Positions 2,120 to 12,009 of a stretch of 15,732 bases of DNA are shown here, piece after piece. The notes below the pieces were generated by a model. It was not told the DNA's origin. It saw nothing but the letters and a program-made list of their open reading frames with translations, and did not search any database. Source of the stretch: an uncultured Lachnospiraceae bacterium (GTDB taxonomy: Bacteria > Bacillota > Clostridia > Lachnospirales > Lachnospiraceae); contig CAMWKA010000010.1 of assembly GCA_947174725.1 (NCBI GenBank), positions 1 to 15,732 of the forward strand, in the 5' to 3' direction. Position numbers and translations under genes: made by a program. Each line of letters starts with the position of its first letter. The stretch's first letter is position 1.

Positions 2120-2167
2120 AAAAATATTGTGCCTGCGGTGCGGATGCACAGGCTACGGAAAGGCATG
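2120..2167 (+). repeat. Imperfect direct repeat, left copy, before the MATE gene
   Basis: This stretch aligns without gaps to 3514-3561, with 37 of 48 bases identical by my count. Both copies contain TGCCT near the left end and AGGCA near the right end, which could pair. This copy also holds a perfect small hairpin (GTGC, loop GGAT, GCAC) that is lost in the other. Nearly all differences are G or C here against A or T in the right copy. The pair brackets the MATE gene. Confidence 0.5.
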
Positions 2168-2179
2168 GTTATTAAAATC

Positions 2180-3514
2180 ATGCGATCGGAAGAAAAACTG
2201 GGAACGGAGCGAATGGGTAAGCTGATGATATCTATGGGGATTCCCACATTGGTCGCACAGCTTATTAATTTGCTTTATAATCTTGTTGACAGAATGTATA
2301 TCGGGCATATCGTCGGACCGGATGCGCTGACAGGAGTGGGACTTACACTGTCCATCATCATGCTGATCTCGGCATTTAGCGCATTAATGGGCGCAGGAGG
2401 CGCGCCGCTTGCGGCAATCGCCATGGGACAGGGTGACAAAAAGCGTGCTGCGACGATCCTTTCCAATGCAGTTGTTGTACTGCTGTGTTTTTCTGTTATT
2501 TTAATGGTTGTATTTTATTACGTCGAGAAGCCGTTTCTTTATCTGATCGGTGCCAGTGACGCAACCTATCCATATGCCGGAGATTATCTGAAGATCTATC
2601 TTTTGGGAACGCCCTTTGTCCAACTGGTGATCGGATTGAATCCGTTTATTACAGCGCAGGGTAAGTCAAGGACTGCGATGGCGTCTGTATTGATTGGAGC
2701 GGTACTTAATATTATCCTGGATCCCATTTTTATTATTGTGTTTCGCATGGGAGTACAGGGAGCGGCATTGGCGACCGTGCTTTCCCAGTGTGCCAGTGCA
2801 ATCTGGGTTCTGCATTTTCTGATGTCAAAGAAGGCATCGCTGCATATACAGAAAGAGTATTTAAGACCTCAGTGGCGTGTCATAGGAAACGTCATGTCCC
2901 TGGGCATCTCTCCATTTATCATGCAGAGTACGGAAAGTCTGATCGCAGTCATATTGAGCAGCGGCTTACAGAAATACGGGGGAGATATCTATGTGGGTTC
3001 CCTGACGATATTGCAGAGTATCATGCAGCTTGTGAATACGCCGATTTCCGGATTTACGCAGGGTGTGCAGCCGATTCTTAGTTACAATTATGGGGCGGGC
3101 AATACCGCAAGGGTAAAGCAGGCGTACCGGATCATTATTTCCTTAACAACAGGCGTTTCGTTTCTGTTGACGATTTCCGTGATGCTCTTTCCGGGTATGT
3201 ATGCAATGATTTTCACAGATGATGTGATTTTGATTGGCGTTGTGGAGAAGGTTGCGCCGATCTTTATGGCGGGTATGCTGATCTTTGGGATCCAGATGGG
3301 CTGCCAGACAACTTTTATGGGTCTGGGACAGGCGAAGATCTCTTTATTTATGGCCTTGCTTAGAAAGGTCTTTCTTTTAGTACCGTTCGCGGTTATCTTT
3401 CCGTTGTTCACGGGAAACGTCATGAGTATTTATTATGCGGAGTGTTGCGCAGACGCGCTGGCAGCGATGATCTGCGGGACAGTGTTTTTGTATTATCGAA
3501 AGAAGCTGGTGTGA
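2180..3514 (+). CDS. MATE family multidrug/cation exporter
   Basis: A 444-residue polytopic membrane protein, the normal MATE length of about 440-460 residues and 12 helices. Recognisable features are the N-terminal LGTERMGKLMISMGIPTL with LYNLVDRMYIGH (first helix and loop), GAGGAPLAAIAMGQGD in helix 2-3, and NPFITAQGKSRTAM. The second half repeats the theme with GFTQGVQPILSYNYGAGN, typical of the family's internal duplication. MATE proteins export organic cations or drugs in exchange for Na+ or H+; the substrate here is unknown. I chose ATG 2180 because the N-terminus then matches the family. ATG 2165 and GTG 2129 are in frame upstream, but the SD (GGAAAGG at 2157-2163) fits none of these starts perfectly. 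The gene is bracketed by an imperfect 48-bp direct repeat. Confidence 0.9.
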   Translation: MRSEEKLGTERMGKLMISMGIPTLVAQLINLLYNLVDRMYIGHIVGPDALTGVGLTLSIIMLISAFSALMGAGGAPLAAIAMGQGDKKRAATILSNAVVVLLCFSVILMVVFYYVEKPFLYLIGASDATYPYAGDYLKIYLLGTPFVQLVIGLNPFITAQGKSRTAMASVLIGAVLNIILDPIFIIVFRMGVQGAALATVLSQCASAIWVLHFLMSKKASLHIQKEYLRPQWRVIGNVMSLGISPFIMQSTESLIAVILSSGLQKYGGDIYVGSLTILQSIMQLVNTPISGFTQGVQPILSYNYGAGNTARVKQAYRIIISLTTGVSFLLTISVMLFPGMYAMIFTDDVILIGVVEKVAPIFMAGMLIFGIQMGCQTTFMGLGQAKISLFMALLRKVFLLVPFAVIFPLFTGNVMSIYYAECCADALAAMICGTVFLYYRKKLV

Positions 3515-3561
3515 AAAATATTATGCCTACGATTTGGATTTACAAGTTATAGAAAGGCATG
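3514..3561 (+). repeat. Imperfect direct repeat, right copy, after the MATE gene
   Basis: This is the partner of 2120-2167, beginning at the last base of the MATE stop codon. It ends with AGAAAGGCATG. A short reading frame starts at ATG 3565 with GAAAGG about seven bases upstream and runs for 24 codons to TAA 3637-3639 (beginning MKKSIMQTMNIS). It resembles nothing I recognise and could be the remnant of a gene that once used this leader. Confidence 0.45.
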
Positions 3562-3665
3562 ATCATGAAAAAGAGTATTATGCAGACAATGAATATTTCA
3601 TATAAAATATGGTATTCTAATGAATATAGAATGAATTAAAATGTAAAGGGAGAAAGTTTGTTGAT

Positions 3666-5709: not shown

Positions 5710-6465
5710 ATGATTTGTATAAGAGACTGCATAGAAGAACATAAGCTCTGCCTCGTGGGCAGCAGTACCGCGCATATGGTTTTGGTCTGCCCGATGATGT
5801 CAGAGCAGTTACATAAAGTTGAGGAACATTGGCAAAAGATCAAAGAATTATCATCGGAAGATGGGATCATGAAAGAAGACTTTTTATTTGCCGCCATCGA
5901 GATAAGGGATTGGAATGGAGAATTATCACCCTGGGGGATGCAGATAAAAGGAGTTGGAGATTTTGCCGGAAAAGCGGATAAGATGCTCGACCTGATTATA
6001 AAACAAGGGATTCCTGCGATCCGTGATATGATGATCAGGGGTGGTGCTTCCGATAAACATAATCTTCAATTTTTGATCGGCGGATATTCCTTGGCAGGAT
6101 TGTTTGCATTATGGTCGATGTATCAAACGGATGTATTTTGCGGCGCGGCTTGCTGTTCCGGTTCGTTGTGGTATCCGCAGTTTATAGAATATGCAAAAAC
6201 TCACGATCTTCCGAAACAAAGTGTGATTTATCTTAGTCTCGGAACGAAAGAGGAGAAGGCAGGGCAGACGGTATTCTCTAAGATCGGTGATGCAACAAGA
6301 GAATTATATGCATATTATAAACTGTCAGAGACAGTAGAGGAAACCATATTGCAATGGAATCCCGGAAATCATTTTAAGGATGTTGACGCGCGGATAGATA
6401 GAGGATTTGCATGGTTGCTAAATAAAATTTCTATTTTAGCTGCCGAAGGTAGCATGGAGGATTAG
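5710..6465 (+). CDS. Alpha/beta-hydrolase, esterase-like
   Basis: A 251-residue cytoplasmic protein (no signal peptide) with the nucleophile elbow G-Y-S-L-A-G inside IGGYSLAGLFALWSMY, the arrangement seen in the Fes/IroE/esterase D-like group of alpha/beta-hydrolases. The Ser is the likely nucleophile. The segment VIYLSLGTKEEKA probably carries the strand before the acidic residue. The His in WNPGNHFKDVDARI is a good candidate for the catalytic base, followed by the usual C-terminal helix (RGFAWLLNKI). The natural ester substrate is unknown. The ATG at 5710 has only a weak SD. The 3' end is informative: the stop TAG at 6463-6465 lies inside GGAGGATTAG, which is repeated at 6600-6609 after an inserted element. 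The gene thus once overlapped the SD of the DUF3737-like gene. Confidence 0.75.
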   Translation: MICIRDCIEEHKLCLVGSSTAHMVLVCPMMSEQLHKVEEHWQKIKELSSEDGIMKEDFLFAAIEIRDWNGELSPWGMQIKGVGDFAGKADKMLDLIIKQGIPAIRDMMIRGGASDKHNLQFLIGGYSLAGLFALWSMYQTDVFCGAACCSGSLWYPQFIEYAKTHDLPKQSVIYLSLGTKEEKAGQTVFSKIGDATRELYAYYKLSETVEETILQWNPGNHFKDVDARIDRGFAWLLNKISILAAEGSMED

Positions 6466-6598
6466 ATTGAAAAATAAGCTCGATAGCTTATTTTTCAATC
6501 AGCAATTTGAGTCAGAGCCTCAAATTGCTTTGATCGCAGATGAGAAACCGCCTACGCGGATTTCTCATCGCGTGTCATCGCAGCAAGCTGCTCTGACA
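6463..6598 (+). repeat. Structured SD-associated repeat element, copy 1
   Basis: This 136-bp unit is 131/136 identical to 11325-11460. It is flanked by the direct repeat GGAGGATTAG (6456-6465 and 6600-6609), which is the SD of the downstream gene, so it looks like an insertion with target-site duplication. Predicted RNA hairpins: (1) GATTGAAAAATAAGCT at 6465-6480 with its perfect complement ending at 6500, four-base loop; (2) AGCAATTTGAG at 6501-6511 with CTCAAATTGCT at 6519-6529, loop TCAGAGC; (3) GATGAGAAA and CCGC against GCGG and TTTCTCATC, 6539-6569. Loop 2 can pair with GCTCTGA at 6590-6596. The element is open from a TTG at 6467, spaced six bases from GGAGG, straight into the next gene. 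There are no terminal inverted repeats and no transposase nearby. Confidence 0.85.
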
Positions 6599-6610
6599 GG
6601 GAGGATTAGT

Positions 6611-7456
6611 ATGAGAACAATTATCGAAAACCAACAGTTTGATGAGGAAAGAGCATTATATTATTCACAGGGATGCGATATTAAGAACTGTACATTTGCG
6701 GGTCCGGCAGATGGGGAATCCGTATTGAAAGAGTCTCATGATATTACGCTGAATGGCTGTAGTTTTTCCCTGCGTTATCCGTTGTGGCATGTCAGAGGTT
6801 TTTCCATGAGCGATTCAACGATGGATGAAAGTACAAGAGCCGCCATCTGGTATGCGGAAAATGGCGTAATCAGGGATTGTAATTTAAACGGCATTAAAGC
6901 CATTCGTGAGTGCCATCAGATCGTATTGGAGGACTGCCGGATCGTGTCTCTGGAATTTGGATGGAAGAGCAGCGATATTATCCTAAAGGATACGGAGATC
7001 GAATCAGAATATATCTTTATGGACAGCAGGAATGTCAGGCTGGAAAATGTTACGATGAAGGGAAAGTATTCTTTCCAGTATATGGAAAATCTGGAAATCA
7101 ATAATTGTATGTTAGATACTAAGGACGCTTTCTGGCATAGTAAGAATGTCACGGTTAAGGACAGCGTTGTGAAAGGGGAGTATCTTGCATGGTTTTCGGA
7201 AGGTCTGACATTGATCAACTGTAGGATCATAGGGACACAGCCGCTTTGTTATTGCAAGGATCTGAAGCTGATCAACTGTACCATGGAGGATACGGATCTT
7301 TCATTTGAGTATTCCGATGTGGAAGCGGATATAGTGGGTGATGTGATATCCATCAAAAATCCCCGGAGTGGACGGATCGTCGTGGACAGCGTTGGTGAGA
7401 CCATCTGGGAGAATCCTGTCATGGAGTGCAGAGGAGAGGTTATCATCCGAAAATGA
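6611..7456 (+). CDS. DUF3737-like right-handed beta-helix protein
   Basis: A 281-residue protein built almost entirely of short beta-strand repeats with the rhythm x-I-x-x-C-x-F/M (for example DIKNCTF, DITLNGCSF, IVLEDCRI, LEINNCML, LTLINCRI, LKLINCTM), the pattern of a right-handed parallel beta-helix. Length and N-terminus (MRTIIENQQF, then EERALYYSQGCDI) fit what I know as DUF3737. No catalytic site is known for this family. I chose ATG 6611, with GGAGG six bases upstream. An in-frame TTG at 6467 inside the inserted element gives a 329-residue version with 48 extra N-terminal residues. That extension is shared with an unrelated gene at 11329, so it is not part of the native domain. The GtrII-like gene follows after 37 bases. 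Confidence 0.8.
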   Translation: MRTIIENQQFDEERALYYSQGCDIKNCTFAGPADGESVLKESHDITLNGCSFSLRYPLWHVRGFSMSDSTMDESTRAAIWYAENGVIRDCNLNGIKAIRECHQIVLEDCRIVSLEFGWKSSDIILKDTEIESEYIFMDSRNVRLENVTMKGKYSFQYMENLEINNCMLDTKDAFWHSKNVTVKDSVVKGEYLAWFSEGLTLINCRIIGTQPLCYCKDLKLINCTMEDTDLSFEYSDVEADIVGDVISIKNPRSGRIVVDSVGETIWENPVMECRGEVIIRK

Positions 7457-11295: not shown

Positions 11296-11316
11296 TCGCA
11301 GCAAGCTGCTCTGACA
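11296..11316 (+). repeat. 3'-end remnant of the SD-associated element
   Basis: These 21 bases (TCGCAGCAAGCTGCTCTGAC plus A) repeat the right end of the full element at 11440-11460. The match continues through the following ACAGGGGAT-type SD sequence, so 29 bases in all (11296-11324 and 11440-11468) are identical at a spacing of 144 bases. The left part of this copy is missing. Confidence 0.8.
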
Positions 11317-11324
11317 CAGGGGAT

Positions 11325-11460
11325 TAGATTGAAAAATAAGCTTGATAGCTTATTTTTCAATCGGCAATTTGTATCAGAGCCTCAAATTGCTTTGATCGCA
11401 GATGAGAAACCGCCTGCGCGGATTTCTCATCGCGTGTCATCGCAGCAAGCTGCTCTGACA
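11325..11460 (+). repeat. Structured SD-associated repeat element, copy 2
   Basis: This copy differs from 6463-6598 at five positions: 11343, 11363, 11372, 11373 and 11416. Hairpin 1 (11327-11362) and hairpin 3 (11401-11431) are fully kept, because those changes fall in loops. In hairpin 2 (11363-11391) one change turns an A-U into a G-U pair and the adjacent double change shortens the stem. The loop TCAGAGC (11374-11380) and its complement GCTCTGA (11452-11458) are unchanged. CAGGGGAT stands on both sides (ending at 11324 and 11468) and supplies the SD of the downstream gene. The element is again open from a TTG at 11329 into the next gene. Confidence 0.85.
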
Positions 11461-11472
11461 CAGGGGATGAAA

Positions 11473-12009
11473 ATGGAAAAATCGCAAGATTATTTTGGTA
11501 AAGCAATGGGTAATTTTATACATGAAATGTCCGGCGCAGGAGCCATCCGGCATATGGTGGATCAGGGGTATTCGATCCGGCAGATCATGGAAAGGCTGGA
11601 TTATCCCACGCCCCAGCGCCGTGTGGAAGAAACGGCGTTGAAACATATGTTAAAGCAGGGGATCTTATTGGAACGGCTGCCGGATCAGGAATATCGTCAG
11701 ATAAAAATTCCTGCTTCGTGGGACAGAAGACAACTTTCCGAGGCTGTTTATGTCAGGAAAGAACGGGACGGAGAGGATTTTTCCTATGTGCTGCTTCCGA
11801 TCGCCGAGCTTAAAAAAGACAAGGAATTGTTATCCTGCCTAAGTGACAGGGAGCGGGATTATCTTTGCGATCTGCCATGGGAGGGCGCTACGGTATATCA
11901 TCGGTTGACGGGGCGGATGTATGAGATTGCGATAGAGCTTTCAACGGCCATCCCGAACGGAATGATATTCTACTTTATAAAAAGCAAGGAAGAAGTTGTT
12001 ATGTTATAA
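11473..12009 (+). CDS. Protein of unknown family with a possible N-terminal helical domain
   Basis: A 178-residue soluble, charged protein that I do not recognise. Residues about 10-65 (AIRHMVDQGYSIRQIMERLDY, then PTPQRRVEETALKHMLKQGI) look helical, and GYSIRQIMERLDYP is reminiscent of a helix-turn-helix-like module, which is inference only. The C-terminal part (WDRRQLSEAVYVRKE, LSDRERDYLCDLPW, VYHRLTGRMYEIAI) seems mixed alpha/beta. I chose ATG 11473, six bases after AGGGG; ATG 11467 is an in-frame alternative overlapping the SD. A TTG at 11329 in the inserted element would yield a 226-residue form with a 48-residue N-terminus almost identical to that of the DUF3737-like gene. The gene converges on the minus-strand oxidoreductase, leaving 22 bases between stop codons. 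Confidence 0.7.
   Translation: MEKSQDYFGKAMGNFIHEMSGAGAIRHMVDQGYSIRQIMERLDYPTPQRRVEETALKHMLKQGILLERLPDQEYRQIKIPASWDRRQLSEAVYVRKERDGEDFSYVLLPIAELKKDKELLSCLSDRERDYLCDLPWEGATVYHRLTGRMYEIAIELSTAIPNGMIFYFIKSKEEVVML

Follow-up and report, generated by a model that had tools for sequence, protein, structure and literature searches.

How does a repeat come to stand directly before a start codon, with the same ten bases on either side of it, and leave both flanking genes intact? In the window, by which we mean the whole stretch of 15,732 nucleotides analysed here, an element had been predicted to sit exactly in a Shine-Dalgarno (SD) site that it duplicated. Read in the sequence, GGAGGATTAG does occur at 6456-6465 and again at 6600-6609: the TAG of the left copy is the stop codon of the open reading frame (ORF) 5710-6465, and the right copy is an SD, with GGAGG six bases 5′ of the ATG at 6611. 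Our analysis supports the claim that both flanking genes are intact around the element. The downstream gene, described as DUF3737-like, matches PF12541 (E 1.9e-113); the upstream gene had been called an esterase, an identity that is unproven, with no Pfam family matched at E<=1e-5.

The unit was also said to recur near 11325-11460, and we find there 155 nt (11321-11475) that are 93% identical, a likeness that rules out a chance repeat as the source of the two window copies. For this second copy an 8-nt flank, CAGGGGAT, had been reported; the flank actually shared is TCGCAGCAAGCTGCTCTGACACAGGGGAT, 29 nt long, at 11296-11324 and 11440-11468. It stands on both sides of the second copy, where the element's own tail, SD included, therefore occurs twice. 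Positions 6465-6609 are one copy of a modular repeat whose full form consists of hairpins A, B and C and a small hairpin D that terminates in an SD. The features of the window are as follows.

2120..2177, + strand: probable second-type cassette (GTGCCTGCGG ... CACAGGCTACGGAAAGGCATGGTTATT), preceding a MATE gene
3514..3571, + strand: degenerate copy of the second-type cassette, 76% identical to 2120-2177
6439..6465, + strand: left flank, a small hairpin (GCTGCC-GAA-GGTAGC) and then ATGGAGGATTAG; a D-like tail by eye, with the TAG stop of the upstream ORF at 6463-6465
6465..6500, + strand: hairpin A (GATTGAAAAATAAGC / GCTTATTTTTCAATC), with a TTG (6467-6469) inside it, facing the left SD
6502..6528, + strand: hairpin B, with GTCAGAGC in its loop (6511-6518) as the 5′ partner in the pseudoknot
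6535..6572, + strand: hairpin C
6580..6591, + strand: small hairpin D (GCAG/CTGC), its 3′ arm overlapping the pseudoknot strand
6590..6597, + strand: 3′ strand of the pseudoknot, GCTCTGAC, complementary to 6511-6518 at 8 of 8 positions and ending two bases 5′ of the SD; called from sequence and covariation
6600..6609, + strand: right SD and spacer GGAGGATTAG, preceding the ATG at 6611; element-borne by family comparison, with CAGGGAGG also resembling the native SD of the relative G018
6611..7456, + strand: DUF3737 gene, downstream of the element's SD
11296..11327, + strand: additional D tail, SD included, immediately 5′ of the second element
11327..11472, + strand: second element copy (A-B-C-D), with SD AGGGG at 11462-11466, preceding the gene 11473-12009

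Three relatives (G018, G015 and G008) carry different sequence at 6439..6465. The upstream ORF 5710-6465 now extends into the left D-like tail, and by eye the C-terminus that it encodes (6420-6465) reads WLLNKISILAAEGSMED before the stop, compared with WLINKFLT, WLLNKFPI and WLLNNSC in these relatives, respectively. Elsewhere in the window, three likely cassettes of the second type (1010-1044, 2120-2177 and 3514-3571) carry the SD GGAAAGG or AGAAAGG. In relatives such cassettes often read ...CGCAGGTTACGGAAAGGCATGGTTATTAGT-ATG, and several copies there have, by eye, a loop CCTGCG complementary to CGCAGG 5′ of the SD. The GTG start of the MATE ORF (2129) falls inside its cassette; the ATG at 2180, after GGAAAGG, is the likelier start (window 2129-2180).

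Modules, fold and spread of the repeat

We derived the module plan from 38 stretches of the window's own genome (G000; 1,976,686 bases, partial, 72.67% complete), the window itself and 60 loci of G018 and G015. The modules are A (ATTGAAAAATAAG..CTTATTTTTCAAT), B (GCAATTTGAGTCAGAGCCTCAAATTGC), C (GATGAGAAACC..GGATTTCTCATC) and D (GCAGCAAGCTGCTCTGACATGGAGG...). One or more of these modules are missing from many copies, in some because the contig ends. Three loci of G015 (L102, L104 and L338) have solo D modules, small hairpin plus SD, directly 5′ of genes; these may be what is left of longer copies, or the element in its minimal form.

The fold was assessed on an alignment of 35 out of 58 non-redundant copies, the other 23, with insertions, missing modules or a misplaced start, having been removed by eye. 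Helices A, B and C, together with the pairing of the B loop and the D strand, are paired in 95.9% of cells; 20 of the 43 pairs are changed on both sides, and the covariation score of the whole structure is 0.308, compared with 0.020-0.057 when slid. Taken alone, the pairing of loop and strand is formed in 89.3% of cells and scores 0.354 (0.027-0.093 when slid). Two of its five measures, double-change pairs and pair types, are not above shuffles, being reached by 148 and 159 of 500, and the outermost pair does not form in 21 of the 35 copies. Over the inner seven pairs, a loop and its own strand form 6.80 of 7, compared with 5.87 when swapped between loop types. On the evidence of covariation, the B loop and the strand just 5′ of the SD are shown to be the partners of a pseudoknot. 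The second window copy retains 7 of the 8 pairs that join 6511-6518 and 6590-6597 in the first, for which a nested fold gives -65.4 kcal/mol (z -6.9). Because hairpin D overlaps the 3′ strand of the pseudoknot, the two may alternate or share it.

The element had been described as lacking terminal inverted repeats, and indeed no inverted repeat joins its ends; the fold shows internal hairpins. G-U pairs fill 0 of 525 cells in A, 4 of 312 in B and 3 of 385 in C (together 7 of 1222), and 18 of 245 in the pseudoknot. Hairpins A-C are therefore near-perfect palindromes, and the scarcity of G-U pairs may point to upkeep of the palindrome at the DNA level.

Searching the genome itself and related genomes, as had been suggested, returned dozens of copies per genome for these Lachnospiraceae of the gut. 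At the DNA level we found at least 75 matching pieces in G000 (best 40 of 70 candidates scored), and matches in 8 of 98 genomes, G000 included. A covariance model at E<=1e-3 gave at least 87 matches in G000, 110 in G018, 70 in G015, 52 in G008, 21 in G045 and 19 in G066, partial copies counted and the best 150 of 766-1265 candidates scored per genome. At E<=1e-5, with the best 10 candidates per genome, 295 genomes sampled from the order yielded at least 17 with a match to the model, representing at least 11 of 130 genera and two families. The distribution of the repeat across the order is patchy. The pattern of hairpin A occurs in at least 108 stretches of genome contigs; among the matches listed, most are titled Lachnospiraceae, Roseburia, Acetatifactor, Lachnospira, Eisenbergiella or Eubacteriales. 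In these copies from wider genomes the sequences of B, C and D differ and the plan is the same, and many end ...ACGCTCCGGAATGGAG-spacer-ATG. Two exact patterns had no match in viral contigs, and there was no match among 72,556 plasmid and 50,697 phage records.

With its high copy number, conserved fold and varying presence at orthologous sites, the unit behaves as an interspersed structured repeat. A known Rfam family was rejected at the thresholds used: the window has no match at E<=1, and in eight loci of relatives only a tRNA reached the gathering threshold, with the element unmatched. The literature search, confined to papers outside subscription and thus allowing no claim of absence from print, found no description of the repeat.

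The Shine-Dalgarno tail and its sites

Among 51 distinct tails of the window type, 40 start with TGG[AG]G (33 with TGGAGG) and 50 are SD-like; for 57 tails of the other type the counts are 44, 12 and 54, respectively. Based on this common start, and on the share of TGGAGG that differs by lineage, we assign the SD core to the tail of the element, whose lineage it follows. The spacer adjoining the start codon varies more freely than the core, and may be partly native. TGGAGGATTAG is exact in only 9 of the 51 window-type tails, 6 of which then continue with T[AG]TG, and exact GGAGGATTAG is likewise present in only 9.

To the right, the tail leads to a gene start at a narrow distance. In a strict test, limited to the 64 of 156 copies with a recognised tail, no duplicate and at least 260 nt after the tail, a start codon opening an ORF of at least 50 codons lies 8-16 nt past the pseudoknot strand in 43, compared with 166 of 1280 random positions, and 39 of these 43 are at 10 or 11 nt. 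No start codon opening such an ORF is present for 21 of the 64 tails. A looser test, which has no control, finds an SD and a start downstream in 130 of 148 copies. The 156 copies, all with an A hairpin, are not independent, several coming from one genome.

To the left, the predicted placement after SD-like sequence is borne out. SD-like 4-mers occur there in 116 of the 156 copies, compared with 19-32 in windows further upstream; left flanks that are not another tail are SD-like in 68 of 99 (13-21 further upstream), with 31 that are not. The proposal of a safe site between operon genes is only partly upheld. In 101 of 148 copies the 120 nt upstream include the end of a co-directional ORF (at least 80 codons, or 50 where the stretch begins inside an ORF), but the element is not confined to such places: some copies lie away from any start codon, for example L011, and the junction L217/L230 has promoter-like sequence upstream (TTGACT-16-TATAAT by eye).

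Orthologous junctions free of the element, for which the original prediction had called, do exist, and both window junctions lack it in a relative (L106, L137). At the first, the element is missing from G018, which has the SD GGGAGGATTGGT-ATG; in G015 the junction holds a different, short tail that ends GGAAAGGCAAGGTTATTAGT-ATG, and in G008 a different cassette that ends GGAAAGGCAGAGTTATTAGT-ATG. At the second, the element is found in G018 and G008 (part of G008 reads N) and absent in G015 (GGAGGATTTATA-ATG). At a further junction, L013, the relatives G018, G008 and G022 lack the element and have the SD GGGAAAGG, and G015 keeps only the D tail; G000 no longer has the GGGAAAGG of the orthologues, and no native sequence clearly corresponds to its left GGAGGTCAG. 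L016 has type 1 modules in G000; G018 carries the second type there, as does G022, though lacking A. Relatives differ in modules at L009, L012, L015, L017, L022, L025, L026 and L031, and at L011 the site in G015 is empty.

The best pair of filled and empty sites, L230 and L217, comes from two MAGs titled Roseburia sp., with flanks 94.9 and 97.6% identical. The filled site reads GGAATGGAGACAGC-GTGAAAAATAAG...GGAATGGAGATAAT-ATG and the empty site GGAATGGAGACAAGT-ATG; in a longer reading they are ...TTTTGGAATGGAGACAGC-GTGAAAAATAAG...CTCCGGAATGGAGATAAT-ATGAAAAATATAAAG and ...TTTTGGAATGGAGACAAGT-ATGAAAAAAATAAAG, respectively. The insertion lies between the SD and the start codon, with the native SD staying on the left and the tail SD of the element standing on the right. 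Since the native SD of L217 looks like a decayed D tail, this site may have an older history.

How the repeat would move and act

We consider it probable that the unit is a mobile, strand-oriented, modular repeat acting as a portable ribosome-binding site (RBS); its translational control and mode of movement are what we infer. When transcribed, the fold would present the element's SD to the ribosome and thereby take over initiation of the downstream gene. The pseudoknot would present or gate this SD, and the left SD would then face the element's own NTG-AAA-AAT start. Insertion would join the element within the interval between SD and start codon, plausibly from a single-stranded or circular donor acted on in trans by some enzyme, and with a crossover inside the SD the spacer bases beside the ATG may remain native. 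Copies would later lose or exchange modules via short repeats; deletion between short direct repeats, such as ATCGCAG around C (by eye), would account for the losses. Of the two flanking SDs, one would be older (native or an earlier tail) and one brought in, with no target duplication.

A bolder version, which we put forward tentatively, has a horizontally spreading RNA/DNA element with a pseudoknotted RBS as its cargo. Recombination of a circular form at the SD/start interval would bring translation initiation at dozens of unrelated genes in each host genome under the element's control, with native SDs replaced or given to the leader ORF and pseudoknot-type cassettes swapped at the same gene between species. 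The closed joint of such a circle would itself read SD-spacer-NTG, i.e. ...GGAGGATTAG+NTGAAAAATAAG.... Given that neither a transposase (Y1 being the sole family searched) nor a circle was found, the case for mobility is built on presence and absence at orthologous sites.

Alternatively, the repeat could belong with the selfish single-strand DNA elements typified by IS200/IS605 or REP/RAYT, an account that we find conceivable and lean towards doubting. A Y1 enzyme acting in trans would take the perfect hairpins as its substrate and place the element on the 3′ side of a short target, TAG/TTA; the right-end SD would merely render the insertion harmless. The single orientation, the hairpins near both ends, the lack of terminal inverted repeats and the near-absence of G-U pairs in A, B and C would all fit, as would the TAG that stands left of hairpin A at 78/96/90% (156 copies) and that may also be the element's own end. 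Y1 transposase (Y1_Tnp) matches occur in 7 of 9 genomes scanned, carriers and non-carriers of the repeat among them; some are broken or partial, and open frames are found in G018 and G022. However, Y1_Tnp has no match in G000 (72.67% complete) or G008 (88% complete), both with many copies, or in G005. No A hairpin was seen at the 9 Y1 loci checked, of 10 fetched, and G002 and G027 have Y1 matches with few or no copies of the element found. The lack of a match in either G000 or G008, and of an A hairpin at these loci, led us to reject a Y1 transposase as the obvious partner.

The covariation of a pseudoknot against the SD also invites a reading as a cis-regulatory RNA, riboswitch-like or controlled by a leader peptide, in which the pseudoknot switches translation and NTG-AAA-AAT-AAG opens a leader ORF. 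The overlap of hairpin D with the pseudoknot makes two states possible. Among the 156 copies, TG is preceded by T (92), G (53) or A (10) in 155 and by C in one, but C is also rare (4%) at the neighbouring stem base, so that the NTG is only weakly special. The leader frame NTG-AAA-AAT runs on into the gene in 24 of 131 copies and ends upstream of it in 87; in both window copies, too, it is fused. Based on these counts, the fused leader-gene product is not the conserved function of the element, and a conserved in-frame fusion was rejected. The scan of downstream genes took in the two in the window and eight chosen among 20 that were sampled from 100: of these ten, nine have Pfam families of differing function and one has no family, so that no one pathway unites them as would be expected for a riboswitch class. 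Module presence, moreover, varies among relatives. We judge a regulator of this kind unlikely.

In the window, TTG-started frames are open at 6467-6610 and 11329-11472, in frame with the downstream genes, and gene callers may append 48 residues (MKNKLDSLFFN...) to both proteins. The annotation of gene starts is affected, with both window genes appearing, through the in-frame leader, longer than is probably the case.

Improbable as a general mechanism, in our view, is the one originally predicted, transposition into purine-rich SD sites with duplication of 7-10 bp of the target. In the 121 copies that have a start within 200 nt (131 of the 156 have a start), we set the 14 nt bordering the element on its left against the 14 nt that precede the gene start. 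The matches average 7.98 of 14, compared with 7.32 after shuffling (0 of 1000 as high), and the excess is found both in the 43 window-type copies (7.77 vs 7.27; 9 of 1000) and in the 78 of the other type (8.10 vs 7.54; 0 of 1000). It lies mainly where the left flank is itself tail-like. The 46 copies with a tail as left flank reach 9.39 (8.16 shuffled; 0 of 1000), whereas a weak excess is seen in the 49 other-type copies without a left tail (7.29 vs 6.99; 23 of 1000) and the 26 window-type copies without one are at the level of shuffles (6.81 vs 6.72; 377 of 1000). The predicted pattern, agreement of the flanks within each copy and disagreement between copies, thus holds on average over the 121 copies and fails in these 26, and, with the supposed duplication at the second window copy being a 29-nt repeat of the tail, duplication of 7-10 bp of target lacks support as a general rule. 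An SD core that differs by element lineage also argues against it, as does the right spacer ATAAT of L230 where the native spacer in L217 is ACAAGT. The attribution of the excess to neighbouring tails depends on the call of left-flank tails, for which we set a broad pattern, and for this reason duplication is unneeded rather than disproved.

At the window locus the right end, CAGGGAGGATTAGT, is atypical of a tail, where CATGG is usual (T follows CA in 48 of 51 tails, here G), and resembles the native AGGGAGGATTGGT of G018, and the left ATGGAGGATTAG looks like the usual tail. By family comparison the right SD appears element-borne, yet it is native-like, and duplication at this one locus is possible; a crossover inside the SD, or duplication and then drift, would each give such ends.

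Least probable of all is a vertically inherited operon spacer spread solely by gene conversion between existing SD regions, for which the cassette exchange at L016 (type 1 in G000, type 2 in G018) and the numerous short module differences might speak, but which sits badly with the element-free junctions L106, L137 and L217 and with a patchy distribution over at least 11 of 130 genera.

Small interspersed repeats are usually viewed as promoters, terminators, RNA stability elements or passengers. If the unit is a portable RBS, as we propose, its movement would rewrite translation initiation genome-wide, via a structured RBS settled directly 5′ of starts. This would explain how around 100 copies of a mobile repeat are present without gene breakage, and orthologous genes whose SDs have been replaced in nature would be available for measurement.

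Relation to known elements

The bcr1 repeat of the Bacillus cereus group is around 150 bp long, structured, interspersed and mobile-looking, as is the element described here. Its host group differs, and it is not known to have an SD or start-codon placement. The REP, BIME and REPIN sequences with their RAYT, and the derivatives of IS200/IS605, share with the element the hairpins, the absence of terminal inverted repeats, the high copy number and a possible action in trans. The element differs from these in that no Y1 gene was found in G000, in its three hairpins plus SD and in its orientation to genes.

MITEs, in the passages of PMC10969869 and PMC3049150 that treat them, are likewise short, non-autonomous, folded and interspersed; in contrast, our element is without terminal inverted repeats, established target-site duplication or a partner transposon found in the Y1 search. 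The Rickettsia palindromic elements, as covered in part of PMC10969869, are also palindromic repeats readable in frame with host genes. They lie inside ORFs according to the same passages, whereas the element described here lies mostly 5′ of the start codon and its in-frame fusion is not conserved.

The BOX elements of Streptococcus pneumoniae, according to the relevant part of PMC3049150, are small interspersed modular composite repeats as well and form stem-loops when transcribed. The same part reports that their module number varies between strains and that they can carry start codons of small ORFs, two further points of likeness, and that the expressed BOX ORFs tested there had no good SDs. 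Set apart from BOX by description, with the sequences themselves not compared, the element described here has an SD core at its 3′ end, a pseudoknot that covaries against this SD and a placement directed at start codons.
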